Assembly: GCA_030630315.1 (NCBI GenBank)
Contig: DAOVNI010000011.1
Span: 1-13,757, forward strand
Reading direction: 5' to 3'
Length of the DNA: 13,757 nucleotides
Source: Phycisphaerae bacterium
GTDB lineage: Bacteria > Planctomycetota > Phycisphaerae > Sedimentisphaerales > Anaerobacaceae
The notes under the pieces are model-generated. The model searched no databases. It was given only the letters and a program-made list of their open reading frames with translations, and was not told the DNA's origin. Below, piece after piece: positions 1,851-11,993 of this stretch (positions are counted from its first letter, which is position 1; every line of letters begins with the position of its first letter). A program made the translations under genes and the position numbers.

Positions 1851-3554
1851 CTACTTAATCGCCGGTTGATTTCCCGCCACAGCGCCGTCAATAGCTTCTT
1901 TAAGCGCAGCGACTGCCCGCCCCCACCGCTTTGCTTCGCTTTGCGAAGCAGTGGGGGGCAGCTTTTCGTAAGCGGCGTCGATAGATTCTTTAGCCCGTTC
2001 GAGCCTGCCCATCTGGTAATAAACATAGCCTAACAAAAACTGCAGCTCAGGCGCCCCGCTCATTTGGAGCCACTCTTCAACATTGGCTATCCTGCTTTCG
2101 AGCTTGTCCCTGTCACCTACCATAGCCACAAGGTCTATCTTAAACCGCGCATATTCAGGGAAAATCTCCAGAGCCCTCGAAAGAAACAGGGCACTGCTCA
2201 TATATTCGCCGGCGGCAAATAACGCATGGCTCCTGCCGGCGTATGCAAGTGGGTCGTCCGGCTTGTAAATCGACGCAAGGGTGAAAGAGTCCGCAGCGCG
2301 ATAGTACCTGCCCTGTTTTAGATATACCTCGCCGGCCCGCATATGCTGATTGAACTTATCGTTCGAGAAGGAGGCAAAAGTCTTGTGTGGACCCAGAATC
2401 GCTTTAGCTTTGGCAGATACATCAACGTCAGTTCCCAAAATATTTCGTATTTCATCGTCCGTCGTCCATCGTCTGTCCTCTGTCGTCCGTTGTCTGCCCT
2501 CTGTCGTCCGTTGTCTGTCTTCTGTCCTCCGTCTTCTGTCCTTTGTCTTTTGTCCCCTGTCTTCTGTCCTCCGTCTTCTGTCCTCTGTCTTTTGTCCTCT
2601 GTCTTCTGTCCTCTGTCTCTGCGCAGCTTCTTCAGGCTTTTCCGCCTTCGGCAGCTGCTCAAGACCTTTTTGTAACTCATCAATTCGCCGCTTCATCTGC
2701 TCATAAACACCAGGCTGGGCTTCCTCTTCGTCGGCCTGCTCTTTTGGCTTCTGCAGTTTAAGAGCTTGCAATACATCTGCGCTGCGCTCAAGCTTAGTAA
2801 GCGGCCGCAGAGAATCATCCCGGCTAATCAGGCTTTGCTTCAATTGTGGTGCCCTGTGTCCTAACTGCTTTAGGTCCTGCCGCAATCGTTCCATCTGCGC
2901 CAGGTTCTGCTCATCCGCTATCCTTTTGGCTTGTGCGTATGTGGCGACTCCATCTAAAATAAGTTGTTCGAGCTGCTGTGGAGTAAACCGCATCGGCCGG
3001 ATTTTGATACCGCCCAGGTCCGGCCCTGACGGACTCGATACCGTAGTGTCCCGGCCGGACAAAGCCTGCTCCTTCCCCCATTTAATCGCCGACCTGACTC
3101 CCGGAGCAAATCGGTCCGCAGCACGACCGCCAATCCTTGTGGTTGCCGGCCTGAAGACGCCGGGGCGGCCGGGTCTCGTAGTGGTTACCGTCCCCGATGG
3201 TGAATAATATGGTGTGTATCTGCCGGAAAGCGTGCCGAAATCCCCCGACCTCGCTGAACGCCTCAAAAAAGAATCAAGCGACGACGAGCCAATCGCCGCT
3301 CCAAAATCTGTGGTCGCCCGATACGGCACAACGCCGCGAAAGTGCCTGCCGCCGGCAACATTGCCGGTAATTATGAGGTTGCCGCTTCTATCAATCGGGT
3401 TAGGACTGCGAAACAGGCCGCTGCCGACACTGCTCGGCGGAACCGTCCCTGAACCAATGGGATTGCCAATCATGGGATTCCTAATCGCCCAGCCAGTCCC
3501 CGAAAAGAAGGTAAGAAATACCACGACCACAATAAATAACAATCGAGCCTTCAT
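1851..3554 (-). CDS. Exported TPR protein with an internal heptad-repeat insert
   Basis: 567-aa protein. Residues 1-23 look like a signal peptide (MKAR, a long hydrophobic run, then GTGWA), so it is probably periplasmic or secreted. Residues about 24-180 are Gly/Ser/Pro/Arg-rich and low in complexity. Residues about 190-310 look helical and charged. Residues about 313-366 are a highly charged peptide repeating every seven residues (RTEDRGQ, KTEDRRR), which is the translation of a 7-nt DNA repeat. From about 395 onward there are tetratricopeptide-like helical pairs, including YYRAADSFTLASIYKPDDP, AGEYMSSALFLSRALEIFPE and LGYVYYQMGRLERAKESIDAAYEKLP. Such repeats normally mediate protein-protein contacts. 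GGAG lies 11 nt before the ATG. It lies 55 bp downstream of the NAD kinase gene on the same strand, so co-transcription is possible. The partner is unknown. Confidence 0.8.
   Translation of the reverse strand: MKARLLFIVVVVFLTFFSGTGWAIRNPMIGNPIGSGTVPPSSVGSGLFRSPNPIDRSGNLIITGNVAGGRHFRGVVPYRATTDFGAAIGSSSLDSFLRRSARSGDFGTLSGRYTPYYSPSGTVTTTRPGRPGVFRPATTRIGGRAADRFAPGVRSAIKWGKEQALSGRDTTVSSPSGPDLGGIKIRPMRFTPQQLEQLILDGVATYAQAKRIADEQNLAQMERLRQDLKQLGHRAPQLKQSLISRDDSLRPLTKLERSADVLQALKLQKPKEQADEEEAQPGVYEQMKRRIDELQKGLEQLPKAEKPEEAAQRQRTEDRGQKTEDRRRRTEDRGQKTKDRRRRTEDRQRTTEGRQRTTEDRRWTTDDEIRNILGTDVDVSAKAKAILGPHKTFASFSNDKFNQHMRAGEVYLKQGRYYRAADSFTLASIYKPDDPLAYAGRSHALFAAGEYMSSALFLSRALEIFPEYARFKIDLVAMVGDRDKLESRIANVEEWLQMSGAPELQFLLGYVYYQMGRLERAKESIDAAYEKLPPTASQSEAKRWGRAVAALKEAIDGAVAGNQPAIK
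1921..1956. repeat. Palindromic element inside the TPR gene
   Basis: Imperfect hairpin in coding DNA. The inner stem is 1932-1939 paired with 1943-1950 (8 bp, TTT loop). The outer arms CCCCAC (1921-1926) and GTGGGG (1951-1956) pair across a 5-nt bulge on the left. It encodes roughly PTASQSEAKRWG near the protein's C-terminus, in the loop after the last TPR-like helix. The form suggests a REP-like element that entered the frame, or an ordinary GC-rich coincidence. Confidence 0.5.
2455..2615. repeat. Heptanucleotide tandem repeat, 23 units, within a CDS
   Basis: 161 bp made of 23 consecutive 7-mers on the plus strand, consensus TCYTCTG with variants such as TCGTCCG and TTGTCTG. No unit is lost or gained out of phase. 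Because 7 and 3 are coprime, every three units (21 nt) give a 7-residue peptide repeat in the minus-strand TPR gene. The tract is free of stops in that frame. Units near 2520-2615 are the most uniform and those near 2455-2515 more divergent. It resembles in form the heptanucleotide STRR repeats known from heterocystous cyanobacteria, but the unit is different. Confidence 0.95.
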
Positions 3555-3609: not shown

Positions 3610-4479
3610 TTACACAATCTTATATTTCGGCTTTTCAGCCCAATTCAGTTTAGTCGCCAGGGTGTCCCATCGGGTTCGAAGCGGATTATTCACAATCAGG
3701 AAATCGCTGCTTTCCCTCTCGACTCTTACCACATCATCAATCGACAGCCTGCACGAGACCTGACCGTCGATCGAAACGGTCGTGCCTTCATTGACGCGTA
3801 CGCCAACGACCTCCACTCTACTATCGGCATTGATAACGATAGGCCGAAAGCTCAGCGAATGAGGACAAATCGGCGTAATAACCATCGCCTCCATCTTGGG
3901 CGACAGTATAGGGCCCCCCGCCGAGAGATTATAAGCGGTTGATCCAGTCGGAGTGGAAATTACAAGGCCGTCGCTTACACAGCCGGCGATGGGCTGACCA
4001 TCCACCGACATCTTCAGCTCAATCGTTCTAAAGGGCGGCCCGGCGGTGATAAAAACATCATTGATAGCCGCCGAGCAGAATTTTTCCCGGCTCTTATTAG
4101 CCATACTGAAAACTCTACAGCCTAACATCATCCGCTTCTCTATCGGCGCTGTGCCTTTCGTTAAACGAGGGAAAAATTCCTTGAGTTCGCCGACGCTGAA
4201 TTCCGCCAGGAAACCGAGCTTGCCGAGATTAACGCCTATCACCGGGACACCGCTCTGACTCAAATTCCTCGCCGCCGAGATAATGCTCCCATCGCCGCCG
4301 AAAACAATCGCAAAATCGCATTTTTTCAAAATCTCGGCTGTACAATTCTCAATACGATAGCTTTCTATTATCTCTGCCTTGCCCTGTGCAAAGTCGGTAA
4401 ATTCCTTAATTGCCTCAGCGACGTGTCCCTTTTTCGGGTCGCCGAAAACCACCAATCTTGGCAAACTGCTTTTTGCCAT
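3610..4479 (-). CDS. nadK: NAD kinase
   Basis: ATP-NAD kinase, 289 aa, a normal length for the bacterial family. It phosphorylates NAD to NADP in the cytoplasm and is usually essential. Visible signatures: the GGDGS motif at residues 61-65 (family GGDGT/S, with catalytic Asp63); [12 protein letters not shown] at 83-94; the AINDV segment around 138-142, with the conserved Asn-Asp pair; the nucleotide-binding stretch with SDGLVIST and TPTGSTAY at about 169-183; then GGP and the [13 protein letters not shown] segment at 203-215, typical of the C-terminal all-beta domain. The start at 4479 is the only Met that leaves the N-terminal strand LVVFGDP intact; the ribosome binding site is weak. The TPR gene follows 55 bp downstream. 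Divergent from the methyltransferase cassette across a 203-bp gap. Confidence 0.95.
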
Positions 4480-4560
4480 CTTATCGTCTCAAACAATTAA
4501 ATTCTCAGTCTTAACCCATCGATTATCGACCATATTGCACCAACAATCAACTAAAATCCA

Positions 4561-4590
4561 CCAACTCAAAACTAAGCACTAAAAACTAAA
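4561..4590. repeat. 30-bp heptameric repeat, left copy of a long-distance inverted pair
   Basis: After two leading C bases, this is four 7-mers in phase: AACTCAA, AACTAAG, CACTAAA, AACTAAA. The whole 30 bp is the exact reverse complement of 12111-12140, and identity stops abruptly at both ends. It lies in the nadK/methyltransferase gap, immediately upstream of the candidate promoter of the cassette. Confidence 0.95.
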
Positions 4591-4594
4591 TTAC

Positions 4595-4623
4595 TTGACA
4601 GCAATTTCACTTTACGCTATTGT
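4595..4623 (+). promoter_or_regulatory. Candidate promoter of the methyltransferase cassette
   Basis: Consensus TTGACA at 4595-4600 is followed after 17 bp by TATTGT at 4618-4623 (4 of 6 matches to TATAAT). It sits 60 bp before the methyltransferase ATG, faces it, and starts 5 bp after the 30-bp repeat. No other good promoter-like pair was seen between 4480 and 4682. Confidence 0.5.
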
Positions 4624-4682
4624 TTACCCCGTGAGATGGTGAGGAATTATCTCATTGGCGAATTTTCATATTTTTTGACGAT

Positions 4683-6032
4683 ATGAGCAGTATGAAAAAT
4701 GTCATTTCATTGTTTTCAGGCGCACTTGGTTTAGATTTGGGATTGGAGAAAGCTGGATTTGTCCTTAGAGCAGCAATTGAATGCAATCAATTTGCTATTC
4801 AGACAATAAAAGAAAATCGAAGACACCTTAGGACAAAGAAGCTGGTATTAATTGATAAGAGAGTATCTCTGAAGAATGTTGGCGTAATTTGTGAGGAAAT
4901 TTTAAAAAAGACCAGACTCAAAAAAAGTGGCCGTTATGTTTTGGCCGGGGCCCCACCATGTCAACCATTTAGCACAGCGGGCAAACGGGCTTCGTTAAAG
5001 GACAGTCGCAGTTGTGGGTTTCAAATCTTTTTGAAAGCGATAAGAATTCTTAGGCCAAAGTTTTTTGTGATTGAAAATGTCAAAGGGATATTGTCCGCAG
5101 CAAAAAAACATAGGCCACTGGCCAAACGGGGACCTGGTTTCCCCCAATTAACTCGTGAGGAAGAACATGGTTCCTGGTTTAAAGAGTTACTTGATGATTT
5201 AAACGAGCTTTGCGATGATATTGGATATTGTGTTACTTGGGGACTAATCAATTCTGCTGATTACGGCGCTCCTCAGGTGCGCGAGCGAGTTATATTCATA
5301 GGTTCATTAGATGGGTATTTTGTATGGCCTGAAGCCACTCACTCCAAAGGTGGAAATAACGGAACGAAGAAATGGGTGGCTTTAAGAAAAGGGCTTAAAG
5401 GTCTTAAGGACAAGGAACCAGCTTATAAAGAGTTTAGCGAGGAGAGTTCGAATTATTTGAAATTAATCCCAGAAGGCTCAAACTGGCATGCACTGCCTAA
5501 AAATCTTCAACCTAAGGCAATAGGTGCTGCTTTCAAATCATGGGGTGGGCGAGCAGGATTTTTAAGGCGTCTTTCATGGACAAAGCTTGCCCCTACTATC
5601 ACAAATAACCCAAAAACAAAAGCAACGATGCTGTGTCATCCCACAAAAACCAGACCACTTAGTGTACGAGAGTGCGCGAGAATACAACAGTTTCCTGACG
5701 ATTGGAGTTTTTCAGGTAGTACGGCAGCGCAATACCGGCAAATAGGAAACGCAACACCTCTTGGTATTGGTGAGTCAATCGGGGACGCTATAAGGAACGT
5801 GGAAGACAACGGGACAAACGAGCTTTATCCCAAGAAACTCTATTGTGCTGACCCTGCACTACTGGAACGGATCATTAACAGCCCAAAAACGATGTTAAAT
5901 CCACCAAGAATGCGGAAAATCAAAGGCATAGAGCAAGCAAGGTCATGGCTTAACGGCAGAGCAAACAAAAGAACGGATTTTGAGAAATATGAGGCGATAA
6001 GCCCAAAAGAAGCAGCAGTGGGCTTCAAATAA
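4683..6032 (+). CDS. dcm: DNA (cytosine-5-)-methyltransferase
   Basis: 449-aa type II C5-cytosine methyltransferase; it transfers a methyl group from S-adenosylmethionine to C5 of cytosine in a specific DNA site. All the key family blocks are present in canonical order: motif I VISLFSGALGLDLGL (7-21, SAM binding), motif IV GAPPCQPFS (89-97, catalytic Cys93), motif VI ENVKG (131-135), motif VIII QVRERV (198-203), a target-recognition region about 215-325, motif IX RPLSVRECARIQQFP (324-338) and motif X YRQIGNATP (351-359). About 80 residues follow motif X, a longer tail than many family members have. The site cannot be read from sequence. Met1 has no good Shine-Dalgarno; Met4 at 4692 is an alternative. 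The DNA is visibly more AT-rich than nadK and dxs, consistent with acquisition. The symbol is used for the family, not for E. coli CCWGG specificity. A Vsr gene follows 23 bp on. Confidence 0.93.
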   Translation: MSSMKNVISLFSGALGLDLGLEKAGFVLRAAIECNQFAIQTIKENRRHLRTKKLVLIDKRVSLKNVGVICEEILKKTRLKKSGRYVLAGAPPCQPFSTAGKRASLKDSRSCGFQIFLKAIRILRPKFFVIENVKGILSAAKKHRPLAKRGPGFPQLTREEEHGSWFKELLDDLNELCDDIGYCVTWGLINSADYGAPQVRERVIFIGSLDGYFVWPEATHSKGGNNGTKKWVALRKGLKGLKDKEPAYKEFSEESSNYLKLIPEGSNWHALPKNLQPKAIGAAFKSWGGRAGFLRRLSWTKLAPTITNNPKTKATMLCHPTKTRPLSVRECARIQQFPDDWSFSGSTAAQYRQIGNATPLGIGESIGDAIRNVEDNGTNELYPKKLYCADPALLERIINSPKTMLNPPRMRKIKGIEQARSWLNGRANKRTDFEKYEAISPKEAAVGFK

Positions 6033-6055
6033 TTCTAAGGGCCTCCAATTGCTAC

Positions 6056-6508
6056 ATGGAAAGGAAGCTTAGAAAGACGCTCAAGGGCGGAAAGTTCAAG
6101 AACGTTCCGGCTGTACGTTCGAAGACAATGGCGGCCATTCGCGGTAAAGATAATCGGACCACTGAGCTTTGTTTCCGAATGGCACTTGTTCGGGAAGGAA
6201 TCAAAGGATGGGAGACCAACGCTGAAGATTTGGTTGGCAAACCGGATTTCTTTTTCCGAAAAAAACACATTGCTGTATTTGTTGATGGCTGTTTTTGGCA
6301 TGGATGTCCTAAATGCGGGCATTACCCAAAGACGCGCAGTTCTTTTTGGAAAATGAAGATACTCCGAAACAAGGAACGAGACAAAAAAAACAGACAGCGA
6401 CTCCGTAGAAATGGTATAAAGGTAATAAATATATGGGAGCATTCCTTAAAAGACCCGAAACGGTTAGAATTAAAAATTAAGATGTTAAAAACCGCATTGA
6501 GAACATAA
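6056..6508 (+). CDS. vsr: Very short patch repair (Vsr-type) endonuclease
   Basis: 150-aa Vsr-family endonuclease, close to the E. coli length (156). Vsr nicks DNA next to T:G mismatches formed when 5-methylcytosine deaminates, so it protects sites made by the adjacent methyltransferase. Visible: the RSKTMAAIRGKD opening (21-32, family RSxxM), TTELCFRMAL (35-44), GKPDFFF with the metal-binding Asp64, FVDGCFWHGCPKCG (75-88) with Cys79, His82, Cys84 and Cys87 in the expected metal-binding region, PKTRSSFW (91-98), KxxRNxERD (101-109) and the IWEH segment at 126-129. The equivalent of E. coli His64 (HGCFWH) is Asp, and the Cys of WEC is His129. The FVDGCFWH form is common in this family, so activity is likely, but zinc coordination may differ. 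No strong ribosome binding site; translation may be coupled to the methyltransferase. Confidence 0.92.
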   Translation: MERKLRKTLKGGKFKNVPAVRSKTMAAIRGKDNRTTELCFRMALVREGIKGWETNAEDLVGKPDFFFRKKHIAVFVDGCFWHGCPKCGHYPKTRSSFWKMKILRNKERDKKNRQRLRRNGIKVINIWEHSLKDPKRLELKIKMLKTALRT

Positions 6509-6559
6509 ACAAATATGACAGAAAGTAAATGACAGAAAATCTAAGAAAAGGTGATTTAT

Positions 6560-7642
6560 ATGGCGAAGAAAGGTAGACATGATTGGAAAGCACCGTCCTG
6601 GCTCAAGGAATCTATTGCTTCGACAGCATGGTTTCATGATAAAAAAGTCGAAGTCTACGAAGGAACTACAGAAATCAACGGCATTAGTCTTTGGAGAGAG
6701 AATTATCGCACTATGCTGGACTTAGACCATATCCAGCAAATTCTAAAGAAAGACCTCCGCAAAATAACAGATGACGAAATTATTGAGCATATTCTTCTCC
6801 ACGACCTCCATAAAATACCCGATTTAGCAAAATCTATAAAGCTCGATGGAGTTCGAGTTCCTTTGATTTTATCATATGGTAAGAAACTGATAGATGGCAA
6901 CAGGCGTTTGTTAGCATGTCGGTATTTGATGAAAAAAGAAAAAGATCATACTGAAAAATTTACAGTATCGATCGTAAAATGTCTGAGTCCAAGGGTTTCC
7001 AAAGAGATAAAACTTAAAATTATTGCAGAAATGAATTTTCTGCCGCAGCATAAGGAAGAATGGCCCCGGTATGTCAGGGCTCAGTTCGCACTCCAAGAAT
7101 ATGAAAATTTTTTGAGAACATCAAAAAATGAGAAAGAAGCATATAAACACGTCAACTATTTCCTAGATATACCACCTGCTGATTTGAAGCGGTTCCGCGA
7201 AGTCTTGAAAATGATAGAAGAATATGTCAAATTTGTAGAACGAGCAGGGAAAAAAAAGCGTCAAGACGCTGAGATATTTGGCCGGTCGAAATTTCATTTC
7301 TTTGAGGAGCTCCACAACAAAGCTGATGTTATTGATAAACCAGTAAAGAAAATGTTTTTCAGGTATCTCAGCGACCAGCAAATCACATCCATGACAAAAG
7401 TGCGGGAATTTGCCGCAATTCTAAGATATGCTCCTGCAAGGAAACACTTAGAAAAACAAAACGGCAGTTTTGAGTTGGCAAAATCCATGTATGCTGAATC
7501 CGCAAGTCCAAAAAAGGCCTTGGCAAGGATAAAGCGGTTTTGTGCATGGATAGAAAATTTATCTCGTGTCGAAAAAAACAGCATATCCGTTGATTTAAAA
7601 AAACGGCTGAGCAAGGCCGTGCAGAAGCTCTTGAAAAAATAA
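6560..7642 (+). CDS. ParB-like (ParB/Srx fold) domain protein in the methyltransferase cassette
   Basis: 360 aa from the ATG at 6560, preferred because AAAAGGTG at 6546-6553 lies 6 nt before it; a GTG at 6551 would add three residues but overlaps that site. The segment with HKIPDLAKSIKLDG, then VRVPLIL, then LIDGNRRLLACRYL (about 84-123) matches the N-terminal domain of ParB/Spo0J proteins: strand, helix, strand and the G(N/E)RR box that in ParB binds CTP and in relatives can give nuclease activity. The rest, residues about 150-360, is Lys-rich and mostly helical, with no recognised domain; ParB's central HTH was not seen. Many ParB-domain proteins outside par loci are regulators or nucleases in mobile and defence loci. 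Here it may supply the missing effector or restrict DNA, which is inference. It is 51 nt after vsr and 14 nt before the next gene. Confidence 0.65.
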   Translation: MAKKGRHDWKAPSWLKESIASTAWFHDKKVEVYEGTTEINGISLWRENYRTMLDLDHIQQILKKDLRKITDDEIIEHILLHDLHKIPDLAKSIKLDGVRVPLILSYGKKLIDGNRRLLACRYLMKKEKDHTEKFTVSIVKCLSPRVSKEIKLKIIAEMNFLPQHKEEWPRYVRAQFALQEYENFLRTSKNEKEAYKHVNYFLDIPPADLKRFREVLKMIEEYVKFVERAGKKKRQDAEIFGRSKFHFFEELHNKADVIDKPVKKMFFRYLSDQQITSMTKVREFAAILRYAPARKHLEKQNGSFELAKSMYAESASPKKALARIKRFCAWIENLSRVEKNSISVDLKKRLSKAVQKLLKK

Positions 7643-7656
7643 GGGAATTAATTCAC

Positions 7657-8832
7657 ATGGGAAAGATACACATAGTTGGCGAAGAGCATTCCTTTACTTA
7701 TGATGCGTGTGAGAGTAGATATCCTAAAAAAAAGGGAGATACTCGCAAGTTTATACCTTATGGACATAAAGAACTAGTTTCAGCTTTAATGGAAAAAACA
7801 ATATCTGTGAAGGAACCCGCCCTTGTCCCGCTTTGGAACTCAAATGCAGGGACAGTCGAAATGGGCAGACAAGATCGTACAGTAAATTTGTTTTTACGAA
7901 AAGCAGGATCCATTCATGACATATGGCCACAGCAAATAGTTTTCAAGTTAACTGTAAAGAACGGCAGTATTTCTTCAGAAAGTAAGATATTTTCAGTTGG
8001 CGTTGCAGAAAAACAGTGTTCTGGTTTTTTTAAAAAACACAATATAGACGCAAGCCAGTTTAATGGAAAGGGTGCTACTACTAAGGCTGCTGCTGCTTTC
8101 ATAAAAGAGGCAAAGTCGGGTGACGGTTTGCTCTGTAGCGAGAACCTTTTGAATGCCGAGGGGTTAGATATATCAGATGAAGAAGTAACAAACCCAAATA
8201 ATTTTACCATTTTCTCTACGTTTAACAAGATGCCAATCTCTTTTACGGGCCAACCTAAAGTATCTCTCGGGTGTATTAGTATGGGTTTGGAGGGCAACGA
8301 AATTCCGTATGAGTTCATAGACTATTACAAGGACATGCTCGATATGTCTGAAATTGAGCAAGCTCAAGATTTACCTTTATCAATGCCTAAGATCTTGTTC
8401 ATTTTACGTTATGAGGAGTCAAAAGCATTGATGCTGATGGAAATGGATGGAGGGACTTCAGCTGAGAGCCCATGGGAAGCTCCAGAGATTGGATCGGGTT
8501 TGGATTTTTATGACGAAGTGGGAAGAGTATTCGAATCACTTTCATTAAAAGTATCAGATCTTTTTAAAAATAAATTTAATAGTGGCGATAATTGTGTCTT
8601 CTACGGGTTCGGCTCCAGCTATATGTGGGTCTGTCCGGCCTTAAACATATCAGTTCATGGCTACGATAAAGAGCTTGTCCAGAAGTGCGCAGAAATTCAA
8701 GTCCGCCACTTAAAATCACTCCTCGACGCTGGTATAGAATTACCCAAACCTGCTGTAGCTGAATTGAAGCGGTTCGCAAAGGATCCAGGTAGTTTGAAAC
8801 TGGCTGCGGACTCTGAGCCAGATGGCCCCTAA
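7657..8832 (+). CDS. PDT-like (prephenate dehydratase fold) protein, probably non-catalytic
   Basis: 391 aa; AAGGGA at 7641-7646 precedes the ATG by 10 nt. No family is obvious at first sight, but residues 3-190 line up in order with the prephenate dehydratase domain of PheA: IVGEEHSFTYDAC (6-18; family LGPxGTFSxxAA), a helix before ALVPLWNSNAGTVEM (55-69; family GVVPIENSxxGSV), GATTKAAAAFI (139-149; family xSTxxAA), then LLCSENLLNAEGLDISDEEV (158-177; family AAIxSxxAAxxxGL) and NPNNFTIFSTF (179-189; family NxTRFxxI). The Glu of ENS is Trp here and the Arg of the TRF signature is Ile, so dehydratase activity looks lost while the ligand-binding (periplasmic-binding-protein-like) fold may remain. 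Residues about 200-391 have no recognised domain; a degenerate ACT-like module is conceivable but weak. Its place as last gene of the cassette suggests a sensor or regulator rather than phenylalanine synthesis. Confidence 0.6.
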   Translation: MGKIHIVGEEHSFTYDACESRYPKKKGDTRKFIPYGHKELVSALMEKTISVKEPALVPLWNSNAGTVEMGRQDRTVNLFLRKAGSIHDIWPQQIVFKLTVKNGSISSESKIFSVGVAEKQCSGFFKKHNIDASQFNGKGATTKAAAAFIKEAKSGDGLLCSENLLNAEGLDISDEEVTNPNNFTIFSTFNKMPISFTGQPKVSLGCISMGLEGNEIPYEFIDYYKDMLDMSEIEQAQDLPLSMPKILFILRYEESKALMLMEMDGGTSAESPWEAPEIGSGLDFYDEVGRVFESLSLKVSDLFKNKFNSGDNCVFYGFGSSYMWVCPALNISVHGYDKELVQKCAEIQVRHLKSLLDAGIELPKPAVAELKRFAKDPGSLKLAADSEPDGP

Positions 8833-8949
8833 ATCCCAACACGGTATGGATTTTATAAAATTTGTTGACATAGGAACAACGAGTTAAAATTCACTCTCCG
8901 CTACTTGACCTGATAAACAACTACGCAACTCTCTCTCACTAACCCCCGA

Positions 8950-9651
8950 CTAAGCCAGCCAAACTACTCTACAGGCAAGATATTCGCTCAGCACCATCTG
9001 AATCAGTAATCCTTCTGTCTGATCTACAAAATAGCGATATCTGCTTGCCTGAACTGTTAGCCAGTCCCTTTCGTATTCAACGGTGCCGCTTTTGACTGCA
9101 CTAATGAAAGCGCGACTGCCTATCTCTGGCCATAAAGGAGCTGAAGATGTTGGTCCTTGCTCGAATGTAGTCCTTTGTTCATCTGACATGACAACGAAAG
9201 GCACGAATGAGATTTCCTCTGGTTCTCCTAACTGCGGAAGACCAAGCTGAAACGCCGCATGACCACGAGCAAGTTTCATTATGACGGTCTTGACCCGATC
9301 TTCTTCTACTTTCCAGACAAGCTTCCCATTGTCGTCTTTTGTGCGGCCTTTTGCTATTCTTACACCAAGGCTCGGATTCTCTGTCAGTATTTTCTTGACC
9401 TTATAGCGTTCTACCTCATCAGGTTCAGCCGAACCATTAATAACACACTCTAGCAAGCAGGCGACATATTGTTCGTGTGTTGAGAAACTATTGTTGCAAT
9501 CCTCACAGGCATCTACGACAGGAACATCGGGTGGTAATGGCTCATCGAGAAATACCCTAGAAGGGACGTGGTCTCTCGTATTTGGTGTGCCTCCACAGTA
9601 AACACACATACCTATTAAACGCTGATCAACAAAAAGATGGCGTGGATCCAT
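8950..9651 (-). CDS. HNH-type zinc-binding protein (possible endonuclease)
   Basis: 233 aa from the ATG at 9651. The reading frame is open to an ATG at 9765, which would add 38 residues, but that stretch lies next to repeat-like DNA and does not look conserved; the inner start puts the first CxxC at residues 16-19. CVYCGG (16-21), TRDHVPSR (25-32, His28) and a second CxxC followed by NN (ACEDCNNSFS, Cys49, Cys52, Asn53) form the zinc ribbon with the His and Asn of HNH nucleases; a THEQYVACLLECV helix follows. The family is annotated as HNH endonuclease or hypothetical, and nuclease action on nucleic acid is likely but unproven. The last 150 residues are unassigned. It converges on the methyltransferase cassette with 117 bp between stops, so any tie to it is only by proximity. 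Confidence 0.7.
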   Translation of the reverse strand: MDPRHLFVDQRLIGMCVYCGGTPNTRDHVPSRVFLDEPLPPDVPVVDACEDCNNSFSTHEQYVACLLECVINGSAEPDEVERYKVKKILTENPSLGVRIAKGRTKDDNGKLVWKVEEDRVKTVIMKLARGHAAFQLGLPQLGEPEEISFVPFVVMSDEQRTTFEQGPTSSAPLWPEIGSRAFISAVKSGTVEYERDWLTVQASRYRYFVDQTEGLLIQMVLSEYLACRVVWLA

Positions 9652-9830
9652 GTGATTTCCATGTTTCCTAACAAAAACCGAAAAACTCTTTCCACTTTCA
9701 AACCACACAATACCAAAAACCACAATTCCCGCCTGCCCCCAGGGTGAGCTCCTGCGCACCCACAAGCCGGGGTCAACACATAAAATTCTGCCACGCTAAT
9801 TCGTATCCTGAAATCTGTGGCCAATTTTCT

Positions 9831-9919
9831 TTTGTGTCTTCGTGCCTTCGTGGTTAAATTTAATAAACTCTGCGTTCTCTGTGTCCTCTGTGGCTAAAAA
9901 ATCCGTGTAATTTGTGGCT
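9831..9919. repeat. Composite 8- and 9-nt tandem repeats between dxs and the HNH gene
   Basis: Three 8-mers at 9831-9854 (TTTGTGTC, TTCGTGCC, TTCGTGGT), three 9-mers at 9869-9895 (TCTGCGTTC, TCTGTGTCC, TCTGTGGCT), then CGTGTAATTTGTGGCT at 9904-9919. The last block is the reverse complement of 12297-12312 with one mismatch. No reading frame with coding character covers this stretch. Together with 9652-9830 (nothing recognised) it fills the space between the HNH start and the dxs stop. Confidence 0.8.
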
Positions 9920-9938
9920 CGTATCGAGCATCCAACAT

Positions 9939-11993
9939 TTACGTTTTTAGCATCTTTTTTGCCGTCTTCACTATTTTATCGGCATTTACACCGACCTCCA
10001 TAAGCTGGGTGCTGCGGGAATCGTGCTTTATAAATCTCCTCGGCGCACCAAGAACTCGTATTGCGTATTGCGTATTGCGTATGGCGTTCTGCGATGCAGC
10101 CAATTCAAGTACGGCCGACCCAAACCCGCAGGCGCTGGTGTGGTCCTCGACCGTTATCAGGCCTTTGCCTTTCTCCAGCAGAGAGATAATTTTTTTATCC
10201 ACAGGAGCTGCAAAACGCGCATTTATCACATCAACCGCAATGCCGTCTTTATCCAGCAAGCTGGCTGCTTCCAGCGCCTCGGTCAGGACGCTGCCGTAGC
10301 TAACAATCGCCACGGCTGAATCTTTTCGTCTTTTAACAACAACGCTTTTGCCCAGCCTGAACGGCTTAGCACAAGCCCGGCAGACGTATGCCGGGACAAA
10401 GTCCTGGGACGGGACAAGGTCTTTGGGATACCTTATAACGACCGGGCCATCCTGGCCCAGAGCAAATTCCAGAGCCAATTTCATTTCAACCTCATTTGCA
10501 GGTGCGGTCAGCACCATATTTGGCAGCATTCGCAAAAATCCAATATCCATTAGACCATGATGTGTCGGGCCGTCCGAGCCGACAACCCCGGCCCTGTCGA
10601 TACAAAAAACAACCGGCAGATTCTGCAATGCGACCTCCTGGAATATCTGGTCAAAGCTTCGCTGCAGAAAGGTCGAGTAGATACAGACCACCGGCTTTAA
10701 GCCGCTCCCGGCCAGCCCGGCTGCAATATCCACCGCCGCACTTTCGGCGATACCCACATCGTAGAACCTGTCAGCGAACCTTTTACGAAATTCGACCAGC
10801 CCCGTGCCGTCGCACATCGCCGAGGTTATGGCAACAATCCTGCCGTCCTTTTCAGCCAACTTTGTCAGATGCTCGCCGAATACATTGGTAAAGCTGCGCC
10901 TGCCCGGCACCGAGGCGGACTCAACAGTGTCCCCATTCATTTTGAATGGGCCTGTCGAATGAAATTTGCTGGCCCCGTTAGAAGCAGGATAGATGGGCCC
11001 CGTCATAGCCTTTTTCCTCTCTGCCCTGGTAAGGCCGGAGCTTCTAATGGGGCTGTGGCGTGAACCAGCCGGTCGAAAACCATTGCCCTTTCTCGTGAAA
11101 ACGTGCAGAATCGCAGGGTGATTCAGGTCGGCCAATGCCTCGAACAATTGTATAAGTGCCCCAACGTCGTGGCCGTCAACAGGGCCAAAGTATGGGATAT
11201 CCAAGCTCTCAAACATCTGACTGGCCGGCAACACCATTCGAATACTCTTCTTAATCCTCTCAATCGCTTCCTCAACACTTTTGCCGATAACGGGCATATG
11301 CTCCAGAATGTTACGCGTGGTCCTGCGCAAATCCTCATAGGTCTGGCTCAGGCGCACCCTGGAGAAGTATTTTGCCATTGCGCCGACAGTTGCGTCTATT
11401 GCCATCGAGTTGTCGTTGAGCACGATTAGTAATTGCCGTCTAACTAAACCGAGATTATTGAGCGCCTCGAAAGAAACGCCGTTAACAATACTGGCATCTC
11501 CCACCACTGCCACGATTTTGGGGAATTTTGAATTTTGAATTTTGAATTTAGAAATTTTTTCATTTTTAATTTTTAATTCTTCACCTATTGCCATTCCGAT
11601 TGCCGTTGCTATTGCGGTGCCGGCGTGGCCGACGGTGAAGCGGTCATATACGCTCTCAGCGGGGTTGGGAAAGCCGCTTATCCCGCCGGGGAGGCGAAGG
11701 CGCTCGAATGCCTCTTTCCTTCCGGTAATGATTTTATGCGCATAGCATTGATGGCCGACGTCCCAGAGGAGCTTGTCTTCCTTGAAATCGAAGACATAGT
11801 GCATCGCCAGCGTCAATTCCACTACGCCGAGATTGCTGGCCAGGTGACCGCCGGTTTTGCTGACCGAATTGAGAATAAACCGGCGTATTTCGTCTGCCAG
11901 AGTCCGAAGCTCGCCTACCTTCAGCTTTTTGACGTCCGCCGGACTATCTACCCCGTTTAGAAACTTCCATTTTTCATGTGATGCTTGCGTCAT
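9939..11993 (-). CDS. dxs: 1-deoxy-D-xylulose-5-phosphate synthase with repeat-like insertions
   Basis: 684-aa thiamine-diphosphate enzyme that condenses pyruvate and glyceraldehyde 3-phosphate, the first step of the MEP isoprenoid pathway; cytoplasmic dimer. Visible: GGHLASNLG (48-56), WDVGHQ (77-82), the ThDP motif VVGDASIVNG (163-172, where GDG is GDA), the Asn-containing LNDNSM, PYFGPVDGHD (267-276), the pyrimidine-domain DVGIAESAAVDIAAG (412-426, with Glu417 for ThDP activation), and GPTHHGLMDIGFLR (475-488). E. coli DXS is 620 aa; most of the extra length sits in repeat-like blocks at 137-157 and 314-341, and a heptamer-derived stretch is at 637-646. In other DXS proteins the usual QH after IAE is conserved; here it is SA. 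Core residues are otherwise intact, so the enzyme is probably active. GGAAAGG lies 10 nt before the ATG. It appears monocistronic. Confidence 0.95.
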   Translation of the reverse strand: MTQASHEKWKFLNGVDSPADVKKLKVGELRTLADEIRRFILNSVSKTGGHLASNLGVVELTLAMHYVFDFKEDKLLWDVGHQCYAHKIITGRKEAFERLRLPGGISGFPNPAESVYDRFTVGHAGTAIATAIGMAIGEELKIKNEKISKFKIQNSKFPKIVAVVGDASIVNGVSFEALNNLGLVRRQLLIVLNDNSMAIDATVGAMAKYFSRVRLSQTYEDLRRTTRNILEHMPVIGKSVEEAIERIKKSIRMVLPASQMFESLDIPYFGPVDGHDVGALIQLFEALADLNHPAILHVFTRKGNGFRPAGSRHSPIRSSGLTRAERKKAMTGPIYPASNGASKFHSTGPFKMNGDTVESASVPGRRSFTNVFGEHLTKLAEKDGRIVAITSAMCDGTGLVEFRKRFADRFYDVGIAESAAVDIAAGLAGSGLKPVVCIYSTFLQRSFDQIFQEVALQNLPVVFCIDRAGVVGSDGPTHHGLMDIGFLRMLPNMVLTAPANEVEMKLALEFALGQDGPVVIRYPKDLVPSQDFVPAYVCRACAKPFRLGKSVVVKRRKDSAVAIVSYGSVLTEALEAASLLDKDGIAVDVINARFAAPVDKKIISLLEKGKGLITVEDHTSACGFGSAVLELAASQNAIRNTQYAIRVLGAPRRFIKHDSRSTQLMEVGVNADKIVKTAKKMLKT
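10058..10085. repeat. Heptanucleotide tandem repeat (GTATTGC)4 inside dxs
   Basis: Three exact GTATTGC units at 10058-10078 and a fourth, GTATGGC, at 10079-10085. On the coding (minus) strand this gives about AIRNTQYAIR, residues 637-646, between the conserved GSAVLELA and LGAPRRFIKH segments of the C-terminal domain. A related tract, GTATTGC GTATGTC GTATGTC, lies at 12338-12358 in the gene-poor stretch. Confidence 0.9.
10932..10950. repeat. Perfect hairpin in the dxs interdomain segment
   Basis: CCCATTCA (10932-10939) and TGAATGGG (10943-10950) form a perfect 8-bp stem around TTT. It encodes about PFKMNG just after the conserved KFHSTGPF. It lies 21 bp from the inverted-repeat-bounded block at 10972-11053. 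Confidence 0.6.
10972..11053. repeat. 82-bp inverted-repeat-bounded insert in dxs
   Basis: The ends are GCCCCGTTAGAAGC (10972-10985) and GCTTCTAATGGGGC (11040-11053), inverted copies with one mismatch in 14. The block encodes residues about 314-341 of DXS. Known DXS proteins pass from the KGxGxxPA segment to KFHGxGxF through only a few residues. The extra residues fall exactly between these two inverted ends, which points to an in-frame palindromic insertion. Confidence 0.6.
11523..11582. repeat. A/T heptanucleotide repeats inside dxs
   Basis: GAATTTT three times then GAATTTA at 11523-11550, and after a short T-rich link ATTTTTA, ATTTTTA, ATTCTTC at 11562-11582. On the coding strand this gives a Lys/Asn/Phe-rich stretch (about residues 137-157) just before VAVVGDAS, where other DXS proteins have only a short linker. 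The sharp drop in GC against the rest of dxs supports later insertion. Confidence 0.9.

Follow-up and report, generated by a model that had tools for sequence, protein, structure and literature searches.

The locus considered here raises the question of why a protein with the fold of prephenate dehydratase (PDT), an enzyme of phenylalanine synthesis, should be encoded at the end of a gene cassette devoted to DNA modification. The window (the whole stretch of DNA that was analysed, 13,757 nucleotides from a Phycisphaerae bacterium) contains the following genes of the cassette and its flanks:

3610..4479, minus strand: NAD kinase (nadK), flank (PF20143, PF01513)
4683..6032, plus strand: C5 cytosine DNA methyltransferase, 449 aa (PF00145, E=2e-53; TIGR00675, 148.7 bits, cut-off 100.65)
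6056..6508, plus strand: Vsr mismatch endonuclease, 150 aa (TIGR00632, 104.2 bits, cut-off 97.85; PF03852, E=4.5e-16)
6560..7642, plus strand: ParB/KorB-like DNA-binding NTPase-fold protein, 360 aa (ATG start; a GTG at 6551 is also possible)
7657..8832, plus strand: PDT-like protein (repurposed prephenate dehydratase), 391 aa (intact ORF, profile and structure matches)
9939..11993, minus strand: 1-deoxyxylulose-5-phosphate synthase (dxs), flank (PF13292, E=2.5e-102)

PF00800 matches residues 4-190 of the PDT-like protein over profile positions 1-177 of 181 (E=1.1e-13), scoring 51.8 bits against a gathering cut-off of 25.2, and is found individually in 42 of the 44 family rows (E up to 0.1). 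Profile-profile comparison of the family with six ordinary PDTs (hhalign) gives a probability of 97.2 and E=3.4e-11 over 209 columns. The family profile also picks up an ordinary PDT from one genome in the phylum of L005 (E=6.2e-12) and, among PDB sequences, the S. aureus PDT 2qmw (E=7.6e-6); a PDB sequence search with the single protein gave no relevant match. Chance similarity can be ruled out because PF00800 recurs across the family rows, the profiles match each other, and family-profile searching recovers an ordinary PDT. Among 5.8 billion proteins, the window protein has 36 relatives and the family profile 42 (43 distinct combined; 34-98% identity), and of the 42 found with the profile, 40 carry a precomputed PF00800 assignment and 38 exceed 350 aa. 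The dN/dS of the gene, an estimate resting on L001 and L002 since dS is saturated against L003, is ~0.15-0.18 (0.120/0.664 and 0.102/0.665), which supports purifying selection. A spurious ORF at 7657-8832 was rejected on the basis of the PF00800 match, the relatives and dN/dS.

The predicted structure fits the two-lobed PDT fold (PDT structures including 6vh5, 2qmw and 2qmx), and GqqA (7am0) is one of its two best structural matches. The PDT fold proposed by the initial annotation for the N-terminal part is therefore borne out by Pfam, profile-profile comparison and structure model alike, down to the two lobes that it called for. The five PDT sequence blocks that it pointed to do occur in the right order, all inside the PF00800 match, the fourth (AEGL, residues 167-170) not being conserved in the family. 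From sequence, structure model and gene neighbourhoods, it is clear that the protein descends from a PDT. One member of the family, P0037, is a 223-aa metagenomic ORF in which the first ~39 residues of a cassette methyltransferase are joined to the PDT-like C-terminal part, reflecting either an internal cassette deletion or an assembly artefact. The parts of the window protein are as follows:

7666..8226, plus strand: PDT domain, two-lobed PBP2-type fold, residues 4-190 (PF00800, hhalign, fold matches)
7834..7842, plus strand: W60-N61-S62 in place of E-N-S (W 41/41 and N 41/41, against E 6/6 and N 6/6 in ordinary PDTs)
8206..8214, plus strand: T184-I185-F186 in place of T-R-F (T and F 41/41 each; TRF in 6/6 ordinary PDTs)
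8254..8532, plus strand: ACT-like region, ~residues 200-292 (structure only; approximate boundaries)
8533..8829, plus strand: family-specific C-terminal region, ~residues 293-391 (conserved across family alignments)

The binding pocket was compared between six ordinary PDTs and 41 family members, made up of the L037 protein and 40 of the 44 rows; four rows of at most 350 aa (P0036, P0037, P0043 and P0044) were left out, among them the P0037 chimera, which has unrelated letters at these positions. Where ordinary PDTs (6/6) have the ENS Glu, all 41 members carry Trp, and the TRF Arg (6/6) is replaced by Ile in 25, Val in 14, Leu in one and Ala in one, leaving each residue of the prephenate dehydratase signature in 0/41. 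The two replacements noticed earlier in the window protein are thus traits of the whole family. Pro58, Asn61, Ser113, Gln120, Cys121, Ala144, Asn182, Thr184 and Phe186, in contrast, are invariant in 41/41 members and 6/6 ordinary PDTs, and Thr141 is present in 41/41 and 5/6. The more general statement that the catalytic residues are replaced consequently holds for Glu and Arg and fails for N61, Q120, C121, T141, N182, T184 and F186. The Asn, Gln and Thr of the cleft (N61, Q120 and T184, kept together in 41/41) are presumably the catalytic residues of E. coli PDT, and the ENS Glu is taken here to occupy the position of E. coli E159. Even the L037 relative, only 23% identical to the window protein (P0001), retains the pocket set, with Val at the Arg position. 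In the available part of PMC8192741, E159 and E232 of E. coli PDT are described as important for substrate binding, and the PDT-family acylase GqqA (7am0) as keeping the equivalents of both and complementing PDT-deficient E. coli; the PDT-like protein differs in having Trp for the ENS Glu, and no ParB or methyltransferase partner of GqqA is mentioned there. Sequence, structure model and neighbourhoods show that the Glu and Arg signature residues were lost, while purifying selection has maintained the remainder of the cleft. A change at two signature positions within an otherwise conserved cleft indicates a pocket that is still used, but for another ligand or another reaction.

The C-terminal half, initially described as unknown, can be assigned in part. 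Within the range 1-300, 257-259 residues of the model align to PDT+ACT chains, and the first ~95 residues of the half are ACT-like by structure, hhalign finding neither an ACT signal nor an internal repeat. The strings GAL and ESRP, which we take to be the Phe-binding motifs of the ordinary PDT ACT domain, occur in 1/44 and 0/44 PDT-like rows, respectively, compared with 6/6 ordinary PDTs in each case; an ACT domain bearing these motifs is therefore absent from the family. The original description stands for the remainder, residues ~293-391, which lie mostly beyond the range of the PDT structure matches and are not put forward as a new fold. The only near-invariant charged residues listed in the C-terminal half are K245, R251 and E262. 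A distant relative of this half was also seen at a contig edge (L029, 1-690), beside a PLD-family gene.

The gene preceding the PDT-like gene encodes a protein with the ParB N-terminal fold, KorB and ParB being its best folds, and its GxxR P motif reads DGNRR in 40/40 sequences. It shares this fold and motif with ParB/KorB CTPase-fold proteins (8qa9, 7bnr, 5k5d), and the helical region that follows the N-terminal fold in KorB and Noc aligns with its own. The partner differs from ParB/KorB proteins in its weak sequence-profile matches, in C-terminal helices that are barely matched beyond ~300, and in having a PDT-like protein and a C5 methyltransferase as companions. According to the part of PMC12704722 that was available, the GxxR Arg is required for NTP binding in the ParB-fold proteins tested, 17 of 28 purified ParB-fold proteins showed no NTP binding, and KorB uses CTP in regulating plasmid genes. 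Nuclease activity is also reported for ParB-fold proteins (PMC5512222, available in part), and the ParB-like protein of the window gives a match (E=2.4e-5) to PHROG 18056, a group called ParB-like partition nuclease.

Pairwise distances among the ParB-like and PDT-like proteins are closely correlated (r=0.955, 20 pairs, 0/2000 permutations as high), and remain so without L037 (0.934) and within 16 (0.904; 0/2000 permutations as high each time), a correlation that linkage alone could produce, as co-divergence of neighbours also follows from joint transfer. In a comparison of lengths alone, not of contigs seen, the longest contig of 13 of 43 PDT-like clusters is exactly as long as that of a ParB-like cluster, against 0-1 when shifted by 1-10. 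Taken with sequence and structure model, the neighbourhoods establish that the PDT-like protein is paired (7/7 loci) and co-diverges with the ParB-like protein.

Of these seven distinct loci with flanks, the window and L001-L003 belong to Planctomycetota, L004 to Thermodesulfovibrionia and L005 to Omnitrophota, and L037 comes from genome G1120, which shares its phylum with the L004 genome; L029 is not among them because its upstream sequence is cut off. In every locus the ParB-like gene lies directly upstream of the PDT-like gene on the same strand with a gap of 3-21 nt, and a C5 methyltransferase adjoins the pair; six loci have it on the same strand, and in L037 it is convergent. Vsr is present in three (the window by profile, L002 and L003 by ORF likeness), and either Vsr or HhH-GPD in four, the HhH-GPD gene of L004 standing immediately after the PDT-like gene in place of Vsr. 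The contigs of L001 and L005 stop ~0.5-0.6 kb past the PDT-like gene, so that a downstream repair gene there may be missed. The methyltransferase-Vsr-ParB setting first described for the window therefore recurs in its methyltransferase and ParB components but not regularly in Vsr. The survey of homologues called for at that stage places all seven beside a methyltransferase, without the TRF Arg. By eye, a C-terminal extension of the methyltransferase is common to the window, L001-L003, L023 and L037 and absent in L004 and L005. Nuclease-like neighbours vary: genes that look HNH-like by eye stand next to the window cassette and, in L002, downstream; L005 has PDDEXK_5 (below cut-off) upstream, and L037 has Mrr_cat. 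The ORF that follows the window cassette (8950-9765, minus strand, 271 aa) has CxxC and CN motifs, is HNH-like by eye and has no Pfam match. No endonuclease model other than Vsr from Pfam, NCBIfam or PADLOC matched in the window cassette; PADLOC models match its methyltransferase and Vsr, with 0 families at E up to 1 for the PDT-like or ParB-like protein.

The cassette separates the dxs and nadK ORFs of the window, which lie 5,459 nt apart, while the two genes adjoin in five of the six relatives with both on one contig (gaps of 35, 35, 51, 71 and 151 nt). In the sixth, G295, they are ~8.8 kb apart with other genes between them, including an HNH-like ORF by eye (L052). This survey covered ten picked relatives, of which G900, G244 and G250 have the genes on different contigs and G901 shows neither. 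In G905 the cassette is at a different genomic place, and the GC content of the cassette (0.39-0.43) is lower than that of six other window genes scored (0.46-0.54). Neighbourhoods, sequence and structure model together demonstrate that the cassette is present at a site where relatives have none. The dxs-nadK junction (window 4480-9938) appears to be variable.

The cassette is also rare: in a survey of 298 genomes of the class, two have it, own genome counted. Surveys for the ParB-like protein (own or seed genome counted) found it in 4/294 genomes of a phylum draw, 3/89 of the family, and 1/2 and 2/245 in further draws. The PDT-like survey of the L005 phylum gave 3/285 (seed counted), including one ordinary PDT and the L029 C-terminal fragment, and that for L037 gave 1/235 (seed counted). 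A viral origin of the PDT-like protein was rejected, no relatives being found in viral contigs, in PHROG or in BFVD structures at E<=1e-3 (best 1.2e-3), nor in phage records for the L037 relative. The ParB-like proteins gave one weak 39-residue match to viral sequences in one search and none in another. Plasmid records contained no match to the window PDT-like or ParB-like protein, and ParB-like proteins have weak plasmid matches in Bradyrhizobium and Exiguobacterium. The L037 PDT-like protein matches a PDT-domain gene of an Arcobacter plasmid (E=9e-3) that neighbours genes of aromatic degradation and was not accepted as a cassette. On the L037 contig (198-3094 and 6043-16132), TnsA-like and Mu/TnsB-type transposase genes accompany the cassette, and a Tn7-like transposon may carry the system there.

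There is good support for the view that a PDT was recruited away from phenylalanine synthesis to a mobile methyltransferase-ParB cassette. A PDT gene may have been duplicated or captured, and then repurposed as a dedicated subunit of a cassette that would consist of a C5 methyltransferase, often a Vsr or HhH-GPD repair enzyme, a ParB/KorB-type NTP-switch protein and the PDT-like protein. In such a system, the methyltransferase would mark self DNA, the ParB-like protein would load on DNA and be switched by CTP or another NTP, and the PDT-like protein would bind the ParB-like protein. The two-lobed cleft, with Trp for Glu and an aliphatic residue for Arg, would be expected to accept a less acidic, probably aromatic or base-like ligand, and closure of the cleft, together with the ACT-like region, might alter the state of the ParB clamp and so license or trigger action on unmodified or stressed DNA. 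The final effector step could fall to the ParB-like protein, to a nuclease particular to the locus or to one of the host; it is the weakest link because no single kind of nuclease is constant across the loci. The most likely reading, for which belief and doubt are evenly balanced, is a modification-based defence cassette in which a repurposed PDT acts as ligand sensor for a ParB-type DNA clamp and gates it. Counting against it are the missing PADLOC match for either protein, the rarity of the cassette, the 17 of 28 purified ParB-fold proteins without NTP binding, and the ParB-like relatives in L021-L023 that have no PDT-like gene. The fuller proposal, an as yet undescribed defence system in which the PDT fold (Glu to Trp, Arg to aliphatic) is the ligand sensor that switches a ParB/KorB NTP-driven clamp beside a C5 methyltransferase and a repair partner, is more tentative, with doubt outweighing belief; its ligand would perhaps be a nucleotide-derived signal or a flipped base.

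The simplest alternative, an ordinary divergent prephenate dehydratase that lies near a methyltransferase by accident, draws on the Pfam name and on the several relatives named prephenate dehydratase in their sources. A separate ordinary PDT is present, however, in 6/6 other cassette genomes (202-222 bits, alongside 43-59 bits for the PDT-like protein). The window protein scores 29.6 bits with the NCBIfam equivalog PRK11898, far below the cut-off of 219 bits that the ordinary PDTs of three tested cassette genomes pass (259-314 bits). The window's own genome (69.4% complete) contains the PDT-like match only and no second PDT, which would fit an ordinary enzyme and does not support repurposing; incompleteness may explain the absence. 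With Glu and Arg also lost in 41/41 and the same neighbours in 7/7 loci, an ordinary metabolic PDT was rejected and is extremely improbable. It is somewhat unlikely, by comparison, that the protein has remained an enzyme (a dehydratase, decarboxylase or hydrolase) but acts on another substrate, making or destroying a small molecule for the cassette, such as a signal or a modified nucleotide. The retention of the cleft Asn, Gln and Thr leaves room for such an enzyme, as do the invariant Ser/Thr positions. The loss of the TRF Arg in 41/41 and the change to Trp, again in 41/41, of the Glu presumed to bind substrate (through the assumed correspondence with E159) weigh against it. The acylase activity of the PDT relative GqqA (PMC8192741, available in part) indicates that PDT-fold enzymes do acquire other substrates.

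Two further alternatives concern the ParB-like/PDT-like pair as a whole. The pair might be a restriction arm, one protein cutting or nicking unmethylated DNA in place of the expected endonuclease, since it sits where one would look for an endonuclease gene beside the methyltransferase and Vsr; the PHROG 18056 match and the reported ParB-fold nucleases (PMC5512222) point the same way. The PHROG name is not a tested activity, however, the PDT-like protein matches no Pfam, NCBIfam or PADLOC nuclease model, and K245, R251 and E262 form no nuclease-like constellation, and we consider a restriction arm unlikely. A role as a regulator or partition-like accessory (a KorB-style ligand-gated repressor controlling the methyltransferase or maintaining the element, with no part in defence) seems equally improbable. 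It accords with the KorB and ParB folds of the partner, with the CTP-dependent regulation of plasmid genes by KorB (PMC12704722), and with an Exiguobacterium plasmid on which a distant, weakly matching ParB-like gene precedes an SNF2-related gene and the 3.5 kb upstream include two genes annotated as ParA-family. Against it, a scan of ten window proteins found no ParA, and repair, Mrr-like nuclease and SNF2 genes accompany the relatives.

The preferred reading, a PDT-derived sensor gating a ParB-type clamp, can be compared with known systems. As in Type II restriction-modification, the window has a C5 methyltransferase and Vsr, both above curated cut-offs, but ParB-like and PDT-like genes follow them and no cognate endonuclease was found. 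The Dpd and Dnd systems likewise combine modification enzymes with a ParB-superfamily protein (DpdB/DndB; PMC12839542 and PMC10853773, each available in part), whereas the mark predicted here is C5 methylation, with a PDT-like protein alongside; the window-cassette matches listed (best 25 of 60 for the methyltransferase) include no Dpd or Dnd model. DpdE or ZorD is nearest to the SNF2 helicase found in relatives of the ParB-like partner. Relative to ordinary PDTs with an ACT domain (PF00800; 6vh5, 2qmw, 2qmx and the CM-PDTs of the cassette genomes), the PDT-like protein lacks the Glu and Arg, has an extra C-terminal region of ~100 aa and occupies a different genomic setting. The open-licence literature yielded no paper linking prephenate dehydratase with ParB or defence, a search in which one could be missed.

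The sensors that gate DNA-targeting bacterial immunity are often its least understood part, and here a core amino-acid biosynthesis fold seems to have become a partner dedicated to a ParB-type DNA switch, in genomes that also encode the ordinary enzyme. If this is correct, the PDT fold joins the parts list of DNA-modification systems, a defined conserved pocket becomes available to screen for a ligand, and a defence-linked ParB-fold pair gains a constant second protein. It is also a warning that the name prephenate dehydratase in public sources is attached to some PF00800 proteins outside aromatic biosynthesis.

In L021-L023, more distant ParB-like proteins lie close to C5 methyltransferases and SNF2 helicases but have no PDT-like gene with them, which indicates that the ParB-like switch does not always depend on one. 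L037 carries both a ParB-like/PDT-like and a ParB-like/SNF2-helicase pair, with one methyltransferase and an Mrr-like nuclease on the same contig; its PDT-like/ParB-like pair is a divergent one. The methyltransferases of L022, L023 (second) and L037 share 45-50% identity with their counterparts in the window and L001-L003, and 39-45% with the L004 and L005 enzymes; that of L021 reaches only 28-31%. The methyltransferase/ParB-like/SNF2/HhH-GPD locus of L021 also encodes proteins of 395 and 280 aa with no family above cut-off (3957-5144 and 8009-8851), which are possible effectors. In L022, a C5 methyltransferase (13233-15311, minus strand) has a C-terminal HhH-GPD-like stretch (E=8.5e-5; its 23.3 bits fall short of the 26.2 cut-off) and perhaps unites modification and base-excision repair in one protein. 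Elsewhere in the window, a tandem repeat at 2455-2621 (periods 7, 21, 28 and 42) lies within a TPR-protein ORF (1851-3554, minus strand) and encodes a repetitive Arg/Asp/Glu-rich stretch.
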